Assembly (NCBI RefSeq): GCF_003002055.1
Contig: NZ_PVZF01000009.1
Location: 1 to 64,000 of the forward strand
Source of the DNA: Kineococcus rhizosphaerae
Lineage (GTDB): Bacteria; Actinomycetota; Actinomycetes; Actinomycetales; Kineococcaceae
Direction: 5' to 3'
DNA: 64,000 nt
The position numbers were made by a program, and so were the translations under genes. Below the pieces are notes generated by a model, which did no database searches, had not been told where the DNA came from, and was given only the letters and a program-made list of their open reading frames with translations. Each line of letters starts with the position of its first letter. Position 1 is the stretch's first letter. Positions 29,943 through 32,129 of this stretch are shown here, piece after piece.

Positions 29943-31301
29943 TCAGCCGGCGGTGTGGAGGGCGAGGACCTCGGCGGCGCTGACCTCGCGACCGGTGGCG
30001 TCGGTGCGCTCCTGCACACGGCGGGCCAGCGCGACCTGCTCGGCCCGCGTCAGCTCGATCCCGTAGGCGCTCTCCAGCAGGTGGGCGACCCCGCCCTTGC
30101 CGGACTGGGAGTTGACCCGCACGACCGCCTCGTAGTCGCCGCCGAGGTCGGCGGGGTCGACGGGCAGGTACGGCACCCGCCACGCGATCTCGCGCTCGGG
30201 CCTGCCCTGTGCGGCGGCGCGGGCGCGGTGCTCGGCGAACCCCTTGCGGATGGCGTCCTGGTGGGTGCCGCTGAACGCCGTGTGCACGAGGTCGCCGGCG
30301 TACGGGTGCCGGGGGTGCACCGGGATCCGGTTGCACTCCTCGACGACGCGGCGGACGTCGTCGATCCGCGAGAAGTCGACCATCGGGTCGACGCCCTGGG
30401 CGTGCAGGTTGAGGGCCAGCGTGACGAGGTCGACGTTGCCCGTCCGTTCCCCGTTGCCGAACAGGCACCCCTCGACGCGCTGCGCGCCGGCCAGGACGGC
30501 GAGCTCGGCGCACGCCACCCCGGTCCCCCGGTCGTTGTGCGGGTGGACGGACAGGACCACCGAGTCCCGGCGGTCCAGGTTCCGGTGCATGAACTCGATC
30601 TGGTCGGCGTACACGTTGGGCGTCGCGACCTCCACGGTGGCGGGCAGGTTGAGGATCACCGGCCGGTCCGGGCTGGCCTCCCACAGCGCCGTGACGGCGT
30701 CGCACAGCTCCAGGGCGAACCCGGGTTCGGTGAGGTTGAACACCTCGGGGGAGAACTCGAAGCGCACGTTCGGCAGGTCGCCGGCGAGTTCGAGCACGTC
30801 GCGGCAGCCGGCCAGCACCAGGTCGGTGAGCTCGGCGCGGTCGCGTCCCAGGACGACGTCGCGCCACACGGGCGCGGTGGCGGTGTAGAGGTGGACGACG
30901 ACGTCGTTGCGCAGGCCGCGCACCGACTCGACGGTGCGTTCGACGAGGTCCCGGCGCGCCGCCGTGAACACGACGACCGTCACGTCCGGCGGGGCGAGGT
31001 CGGACCCGGCCAGCAGCCGGACGAAGTCGTGGTCGGTCTGCGAGGCGGAGGGGTAGCCGACCTCGATCTCCTTGTACCCCGTGGCGACGAGCTGTTCGAA
31101 GAACCGGCGCTTGCGCAGCGGGTCCATGGGTTCGGCCAGGGCCTGGTTGCCGTCGCGCAGGTCGACGGGCACCCACAGGGGGGCCTGCTCCAGCCGCCGC
31201 GACGGCCACGTCCGGCCGGTCAGCGGCACGTCGACGCGGGAGAACACGTCGCGGTAGCGGTGCGAGGGCATCGGGGACGGTTGCTGACGGTTCCAGTTCA
31301 C
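29943..31301 (-). CDS. leuA: 2-isopropylmalate synthase lacking the regulatory domain
   Basis: A 452-residue catalytic protein. It condenses acetyl-CoA with 2-oxoisovalerate, the first step of leucine synthesis. The TIM barrel has [13 protein letters not shown] and [11 protein letters not shown] (metal ligands), [12 protein letters not shown] and the [15 protein letters not shown] subdomain. It ends at [12 protein letters not shown], where full-length actinobacterial LeuA (about 570-640 residues) continues into the leucine-binding domain; that domain is absent and no remnant follows. The GTG has AGGAG seven bases upstream. A Leu-rich leader peptide and pseudoknot precede it. Feedback inhibition by leucine is probably lost. 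Confidence 0.88.
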
Positions 31302-31313
31302 GGTGGGCTCCTG

Positions 31314-31392
31314 CGGTCGGCGGGTCTCGGCGGGGATCGACCGGCGGCACCACGCACCACGACGGGGGCCGGTCGGTCAGGACCCGTCGTGG
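31314..31392 (-). ncRNA. LEU-type pseudoknot leader of leuA
   Basis: On the minus strand, segment 31392-31383 pairs with 31366-31357 (10 bp, perfect). The loop segment 31375-31368 (CGACCGGC) can pair with 31345-31338 (GCCGGTCG), giving an H-type pseudoknot. The latter can instead pair over six bases with 31319-31314, directly beside the leuA ribosome site. The first stem overlaps codons of the Leu-rich leader peptide. A conserved leuA pseudoknot (LEU element) is described for actinobacteria. Leucine-responsive control is inferred. Confidence 0.72.
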
Positions 31393-31412
31393 CGACGAAG
31401 GAGGAGCAGCAC
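31377..31412 (-). CDS. leuL: Leucine leader peptide of leuA
   Basis: An 11-codon frame reads M-L-L-L-L-R-R-H-D-G-S: a GTG start, then CTG, CTC, CTC and CTT, ending with TGA. Four successive Leu codons are what a ribosome-stalling leader needs. TACGGT ends six bases before the GTG, so the mRNA would begin at this start codon. The last codons form one arm of the first stem of the leader structure. Too short for gene finders. No homology evidence was available; the call rests on composition and position. Confidence 0.72.
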   Translation of the reverse strand: MLLLLRRHDGS

Positions 31413-31418
31413 CCGGCG

Positions 31419-31424
31419 ACCGTA
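31419..31424 (-). promoter_or_regulatory. -10 element TACGGT of the leuL-leuA promoter
   Basis: Minus-strand TACGGT lies six bases before the leader-peptide GTG, implying a leaderless start. No good -35 is seen. The divergent FadR-family promoter is about 25 bases away. Confidence 0.55.
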
Positions 31425-31448
31425 CCACTCCTCAGACAAGTAGCGGAG

Positions 31449-31454
31449 TAAGGT
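31449..31454 (+). promoter_or_regulatory. -10 element TAAGGT of the FadR-family gene
   Basis: TAAGGT ends six bases before the GTG at 31461, and no ribosome site is present. A short repeat ACTCC...GGAGT (31427-31449) overlaps this region and could be an operator. Confidence 0.55.
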
Positions 31455-31460
31455 GCTCTC

Positions 31461-32129
31461 GTGGAGATCGTCCGACGTGAACCCCTGGCCGACCGGGCCG
31501 CCGACCTGCTGCTCGAGCGCATCCGGTCCGGGGAGTGGCCCCTGGGGGCGAAGCTGCCCGGCGAGACGACCCTCGGGCCGCAGCTGGGCGTCGGACGGTC
31601 CACGGTGCGCGAGGCCGTCCGCCGGCTCGCCGGCCGCGGCGTCCTGGCCAGCCGCCAGGGCGCGGGGGTGTTCGTCACCGCCCTCGACGTCCCGCCGGAG
31701 CGCGGCGCGGTCCTGCAGCGCGCCGGGATCGTCCACGTGCTGCAGGCCCGGCTCGCCGTCGAGTCCGAGGCCGCCGGCCTCGCCGCGCGGGCCCGGACCC
31801 CGTCGGACCTGCGGACCCTGCGCCGGGCCCTGGCCGGCCGGGCCGCGCACCGGGACGAGGCCGAGGGCCACGTCGACGCCGACACCGCGTTCCACCGGGC
31901 GGTCGTGGCGGCTGCGCACAACCCCGTGCTCCTGGACCTCTTCGACTCCTTCGTCCCGCGGTCGCGGCAGGCGATGGTCGAGATGCTGCGGATCGGCGGC
32001 CCCTTCGGCTCCGAGGCCGACCAGGACGTCCACGCCGCCCTCGCCGACGCCGTCGGCGACCGCGACCCCGACCGCGCCCGCGCGGTGGTCCGCACCCACC
32101 TGGAGGCGCTCGTCGCGGCGCTGAGCTGA
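31461..32129 (+). CDS. FadR/GntR-family transcriptional regulator
   Basis: A 222-residue regulator. The winged helix is DRAADLLLERIRSGEWPLGAKLPGETTLGPQLGVGRSTVREAVRRLAGRGVL. The all-helical FCD effector domain follows, with DADTAFHRAVVAAAHNP and the HAALADAVGDRD region providing Asp/His metal ligands. Such regulators respond to small organic acids. It is divergent from leuA and leaderless; its target is unknown. It could act on the shared intergenic region or elsewhere. Confidence 0.88.
   Translation: MEIVRREPLADRAADLLLERIRSGEWPLGAKLPGETTLGPQLGVGRSTVREAVRRLAGRGVLASRQGAGVFVTALDVPPERGAVLQRAGIVHVLQARLAVESEAAGLAARARTPSDLRTLRRALAGRAAHRDEAEGHVDADTAFHRAVVAAAHNPVLLDLFDSFVPRSRQAMVEMLRIGGPFGSEADQDVHAALADAVGDRDPDRARAVVRTHLEALVAALS

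Follow-up and report, generated by a model that had tools for sequence, protein, structure and literature searches.

A LEU element on an apparently acquired second leuA of Kineococcus rhizosphaerae, with two predicted layers of control

Four features define the LEU element (Seliverstov et al. 2005, PMC1262725): a leader ORF containing a Leu run, a pseudoknot, the pairing of the Leu codons with the leuA Shine-Dalgarno sequence (SD), and an alternative hairpin. Leader mutants of S. coelicolor did not fit classical attenuation, and a protein-binding role was preferred (PMC1262725); the mechanism was left unsettled by its authors and has been open since 2005. In S. lividans, the Leu-run leader peptide of leuA, leuL1, is reported in PMC8079986 to come from a leaderless transcript that has no intrinsic terminator. 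A leuA leader peptide is also named in passages on C. glutamicum (PMC4046766) and on C. diphtheriae (PMC5784534), in the latter with no assignable transcript start. Both LEU elements and leuA leaders that are leaderless have already been published. What appears to be new here is the setting, a leuA2 module that combines a GntR layer with a LEU layer, of which no earlier description was found in the openly licensed PMC literature; the same literature yielded no account of a GntR-leuA pairing, which, given that scope, is a weak negative.

The leader in question belongs to a 64,000-nt stretch of K. rhizosphaerae DNA (below, the window) and sits directly upstream of leuA2 (Table 1). An earlier note, made from the letters of this stretch, had described an 11-codon frame with a GTG start and four Leu codons, a TACGGT element 6 nt upstream of it, a 10-bp stem, an 8-bp pairing of the loop and a 6-bp alternative stem. 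Every coordinate in that description holds, all three pairings being found exactly where they had been placed, and the leader proves to be of the LEU type, with the Leu-run ORF, the pseudoknot and the base stem all present. The note did not report the pairing of Leu codons with the SD, the GntR box just upstream of the -10 element, and the second copy of leuA. We lean towards the reading that this LEU element serves an acquired leuA2 which would be under two layers of control, a GntR repressor and ribosome-mediated sensing of leucine.

Table 1. Features of the leuA2-GntR region; positions are those of the window
Feature	Position	Strand	Basis or remark
leuA2, 2-isopropylmalate synthase, 452 aa, without LeuA_dimer domain	29943..31301	-	homology and domain search
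SD of leuA2, AGGAGC, second arm of base stem	31307..31312	-	6 bp with Leu codons
P3, alternative stem, 3' arm next to SD	31314..31319	-	6 bp with 31343-31338
Pseudoknot, 3' arm	31338..31345	-	sub-part 31343-31338 doubles as arm of P3
P1, 3' arm	31357..31366	-	sequence and covariation
Pseudoknot, 5' arm, inside P1 loop	31368..31375	-	sequence and covariation; 31375-31368 with 31345-31338, perfect 8 bp
Leader peptide ORF, MLLLLRRHDGS	31380..31412	-	GTG 31412-31410, then CTG CTC CTC CTT CGT CGC CAC GAC GGG TCC, 11 codons in total; Leu is codons 2-5; TGA stop 31379-31377
P1, 5' arm (leader codons 7-10)	31383..31392	-	sequence and covariation; 31392-31383 with 31366-31357, perfect 10 bp
Base stem, Leu-codon arm, GCTCCT	31402..31407	-	6 bp with SD of leuA2
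Predicted -10 of leader, TACGGT	31419..31424	-	exactly 6 nt before leader GTG; spacing conserved in relatives
15-bp operator-like box, ACTTGTCTGAGGAGT (minus-strand reading)	31427..31441	.	just upstream of leader -10
Wider imperfect inverted repeat around box	31427-31449	.	
Predicted -10 of GntR gene, TAAGGT	31449..31454	+	6 nt before its GTG
Divergent GntR/FCD (FadR-type) regulator gene	31461..32129	+	domain and homology search

When the leader was shuffled 5000 times (mononucleotides), no sequence combined a 10-bp stem and an 8-bp pseudoknot in the geometry of the window. The base stem (31407-31402 with 31312-31307) is also present in the predicted minimum-energy fold. The leuA2 transcript is predicted to start at or near 31412, which would make the leader peptide leaderless. 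A Leu run starting at codon 2 is seen in two of the 81 leaders with a recognisable -10 element, that of the window and L066, the latter having an alternative upstream start.

The host also carries a resident leuA, whose product of 577 aa is 57% identical to the window copy and which has its own LEU element and a leader likewise predicted to be leaderless; a covariance model (E up to 0.01) finds these two LEU elements in the host genome and no third. According to a domain scan, LeuA_dimer, the allosteric domain of feedback by leucine, is part of the resident protein and is absent from the window protein. Within the genus, 11 genomes were compared, that of the host among them, and window-type leuA occurs in the host only. 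The resident type is present in addition to the window type in 29 of 30 genomes, i.e., those of 30 of the 80 related loci. A script placed a stem and a Leu run upstream of 28 of the 29 residents of other genomes; the cores that it called were partly checked by hand, and at least one of them, L154, is placed wrongly.

In a relative from the same genus (L177), homologs of both genes that flank the locus, one LacI-like and the other pyridoxamine-phosphate-oxidase-like by eye, bracket an unrelated ORF in place of leuA2 and the GntR gene, an arrangement that fits insertion at a variable site. The ORF at this variable spot (L177, 2192-3085) is peptidase E-like by eye. Apparently, leuA2 is a second leuA that was acquired horizontally. 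In the tree, the window copy sits on a long branch and groups with four Microbacterium leuA2 that are likewise short, with support (93/98) just below the mark of the program and from a bootstrap that had not settled. Ten of 81 leuA2 copies (the window and the best 80 of 540 relatives) are short as judged by length, the domain scan covering, among these, the window protein. The short or long label requires five changes on the tree, two of them forced by well-supported branches, and the LeuA_dimer domain was apparently lost more than once among leuA2 genes. Copying of the window LEU element from the resident leuA is rejected on identities and on the pseudoknot sequence, which is of the leuA2 type: over alignment columns 1-87, the window leader is 70% identical to the leader of the host resident, 66-71% identical over 12 leaders of the genus and family, and up to 81% identical to leuA2 leaders.

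The leader alignment comprises 85 sequences, namely 73 leaders of the leuA2 type and 12 leuA leaders of the host genus and family, the host resident among them. Of 540 relatives identified, the best 80 were combined with the window to form the leuA2 set, so that the set represents their nearest part. Its 73 leaders are that of the window and those of 72 of the 80 loci, and 8 of the 81 loci were left out, having no core: no element was found in L035, L038, L046, L055, L058 and L062; in L065 the contig ends at the gene; and in L024 hairpin and pseudoknot are visible by eye, in a leader without the two adjacent Leu codons that the script required. Compensatory changes among relatives, on which the earlier note had staked its stems, are present in this comparison. 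Of the cells in P1 and the pseudoknot, 94.8% are paired across the 85 leaders, and 39 cells have changes on both sides, versus a shuffled mean of 12.0, with none of 500 shuffles as high. Six slid versions of the stems are all lower, with 40-57% of cells paired and no more than 17 both-side cells; the covariation score differs less clearly (0.123, against 0.104 or less in the slid versions).

In the Leu run (alignment columns 9-17), positions 1 and 2 of three CTN codons are identical in 83-85 of the 85 leaders and the third position varies, whereas compensated changes in P1 alter amino acids, e.g., His to Arg (by eye). Since amino acids change in P1 and not in the Leu run, the Leu codons seem to be under a coding constraint of their own, apart from the RNA fold. 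Conservation extends to the leaderless geometry that the earlier note had read off the window. Defined as a TANNNT box followed after 5-8 nt by an in-frame start codon, it is found in 69 of the 73 leuA2 leaders (best 80 of 540 relatives and the window; 5.5 expected), in all 12 leaders from the genus and family (0.1 expected), and in 19 of 27 leader ORFs among residents of other genomes (1.7 expected). This spacing criterion is inexact, as the Streptomyces resident L130 fails it though its peptide equals that of a leader reported leaderless; all the same, leaderless starts look conserved among leaders.

Both kinds of constraint bear on the proposal that a regulatory protein binds the LEU element (in 2005, the candidate put forward was a DEAD-box helicase-like protein) and that the Leu peptide is not a sensor. 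That proposal draws on phylogenetic co-occurrence and on the mutants at odds with attenuation (PMC1262725), but a protein site alone would not need the CTN frame and the spacing from -10 element to start, which are conserved in most leaders. Also, the sides of P1 co-vary along with changes of amino acids, which sets the constraint on Leu codons apart from the RNA fold and makes a protein site without peptide sensing, in our estimate, quite improbable.

The base stem has a mean score of 15.2 in the 73 leuA2 leaders (best 80 of 540 relatives and the window), compared to 11.6 and 12.1 in two shuffle controls, with the caveat that part of the pairing between CU-rich Leu codons and purine-rich SDs is due to composition. 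Pairing with the leader's own SD is better than in all 2000 permutations with swapped SDs, but only slightly so (swapped mean 14.3), and relatedness is included in this difference. CTT accounts for 142 of 279 Leu codons when the runs of all 85 leaders are pooled, but for 1 of 280 in seven window ORFs; this excess may favor the base stem, slow down decoding, or do both. In 81 of the 85 leaders, CTT is the last aligned Leu codon.

The switchable stem by the SD (P3), likewise drawn in the earlier note, stands in part. It is enriched in leuA2 leaders, reaching at least 6 bp in 29 of the 73 (best 80 of 540 relatives and the window) versus a mean of 9.4 and a maximum of 17 in shuffles, but at least 5 bp are available in just one of the 12 genus and family leaders, where shuffles give a mean of 6.1. 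P3 is therefore lineage-limited and is ruled out as a general switch.

A consensus scan of 31200-31600 found no terminator-like site with a U tract. Classical terminator attenuation is rejected on this absence of an intrinsic terminator, and control would be translational. Rfam 15 covariance models matched neither the window (at gathering thresholds) nor the leader (E up to 1), and a riboswitch or T-box was rejected for want of any match to the leader at that E value; in the loci of six relatives, Rfam gave no relevant match and two chance-level hits to unrelated families. A leader without an intrinsic terminator-like site could also work at the level of transcription, its ribosome exposing or hiding a Rho-loading site in place of masking the SD, and Rho-dependent attenuation has been proposed for mycobacterial cys leaders (PMC1262725). 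We take Rho to be an unlikely, if arguable, answer, as the base stem and P3 target the SD itself, and we retain ribosome-mediated masking of the SD as the preferred second layer.

The putative first layer is represented by the box and the divergent regulator gene, whose product has GntR HTH and FCD domains (Pfam). The box is found with no more than 3 mismatches in all 80 testable loci among the 81 with leuA2 (best 80 of 540 relatives and the window), 62 times perfectly, and in 68 of the 80 leuA2 loci, drawn from the same best 80 of 540, a divergent GntR gene lies 200 bp away or less. Box and divergent GntR/FCD gene are common to leuA2 loci of several actinobacterial families. Upstream of the 12 genus and family leuA genes and of 29 residents of other genomes, there are at least 5 mismatches to the box. 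In Plantibacter L038, the core of the box is a 13-bp palindrome about its central base (by eye). A search with a 13-base core, allowing one mismatch, gives a single site in the host genome, which is perfect; a control pattern read backward has four such matches. The exact 14-base core occurs in 26 of 30 genomes, once in 22 and twice in 4. The GntR gene has its -10 element spaced as in the window in 12 of 68 relatives (3.8 expected), a proportion that rules out leaderless initiation as a rule for this gene.

In 5 of the 30 genomes, leuA2 has no GntR gene as close as 200 bp. Three of these five (L158, L161 and L162) have an extra box no more than some 100 bp ahead of the relocated GntR ortholog, and no other observation argues as well for a link between box and protein as this recurrence. 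In the remaining two (loci L005 and L070), the GntR gene lies at a greater distance within the locus, and the search for a second exact box was negative. Extra exact boxes are also present in L159, at about 1234, near a gene that by eye is possibly a transporter, and near the middle of L160, on the minus strand, before a gene that is ABC ATPase-like by eye; both may be further targets.

The six leuA2 loci in which the LEU element is not detectable have kept the box. In those of Plantibacter, leuA2 itself appears leaderless (by eye). The existence of these six relatives would suit the view that the LEU element, once acquired, no longer matters in the host and that GntR alone controls leuA2, and so would the small differences between modelled states in the window. 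These states were obtained from a model of SD opening with assumed ribosome footprints and with the energy of the pseudoknot left out. Its median cost over the 85 leaders is 4.5 kcal/mol for the free leader, 3.0 with the Leu codons masked and 4.35 once the ribosome has reached the stop codon; a stalled ribosome lowers the cost of the free leader by at least 1 kcal/mol in 56% of the 85, and the stop-codon state is more closed than the stalled one by at least 1 in 47%. For the window the costs are 4.0 (free), 2.9-3.1 (stalled) and 3.1 kcal/mol (at stop), so that stalling and termination are not separated, and in the host resident L002 and in L028 stalling, in this model, raises the cost. Folding energies thus back a switch in the window itself only weakly. 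Against a relic, P1 and the pseudoknot of the window are perfect over 10 and 8 bp, respectively, and the Leu frame and the -10 spacing are intact; a LEU element without function seems to us very unlikely.

If both layers operate, as we prefer to think, the divergent GntR/FCD protein would bind 31427-31449 between the two promoters and repress both leuA2 and itself until a metabolite, probably one of the carboxylates in the branched-chain pathway, releases it. The transcript would begin at the GTG of the leader. When Leu-tRNA is ample, the ribosome would clear the 11-codon leader, leaving the Leu codons to pair with the SD of leuA2 and turn its translation off. When Leu-tRNA is short, the ribosome would stall on codons 2-5 and block the base stem; P1 and the pseudoknot would then prevent the spacer from forming P3 by the SD, and leuA2 would be translated. 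As far as sequence comparison can tell, leuA2 probably answers to the GntR repressor and to ribosome-mediated leucine sensing.

More tentatively, and with doubt prevailing, we suggest that this locus may represent a mobile actinobacterial leucine module, i.e., a second leuA, sometimes without feedback, that would be braked by a dedicated GntR protein with a conserved operator and by a leaderless leader whose Leu codons are both the sensor and the anti-SD strand. If this module is real, a 70S ribosome on base one would sense leucine at codon 2, before the nascent chain matters.

Taken together, leaderless geometry, third-position variation of the Leu codons and their pairing with the SD lead to a testable mechanism for LEU, in which stalling itself frees the SD. 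Because the Leu codons would also be the anti-SD strand, mutants of the leader may have altered sensor and mask together, and this joint change perhaps explains their paradoxical behavior. The leuA2 module comes in natural variants that have or lack the RNA layer and that have or lack the feedback domain of the enzyme. It also draws attention to a GntR regulator whose operator is sharply defined and of which no description was found in the openly licensed PMC literature. Control of leuA would be useful for leucine production strains.

With respect to the regulator, the best PDB and NCBIfam matches of the window GntR protein are the FadR-type regulators PdhR, LldR and NanR, with which it shares the GntR and FCD Pfam domains; it scores below every curated NCBIfam cut-off listed. 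The usual targets of PdhR, LldR and NanR are other genes. With respect to the leader, mycobacterial cysteine leader ORFs are likewise short uORFs rich in codons for the amino acid of their operon, as described in passages of Shell et al. 2015 (PMC4633059), and leaderless by the title of Canestrari et al. 2020; they are concerned with cysteine, not leucine, and the likeness is one of the ORFs. The leuL1 peptide, MRFGLLLLSCRGEGL, is the same as the peptide encoded upstream of resident-type leuA in L130 (translated by eye), so leuL1, as given in the passages on it, belongs to the other leuA and not to leuA2; those passages (PMC8079986) name no GntR box, unlike what is found at leuA2 of the window. 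The closest relative is the LEU element itself (PMC1262725). The window leader shares with it the position before leuA, the Leu-run peptide, the pseudoknot and the base stem, and P3 is a candidate counterpart of its alternative hairpin. It differs from the published element in being located on a second isozyme that has no LeuA_dimer domain, in lying next to a GntR-type box, and in having Leu from codon 2.
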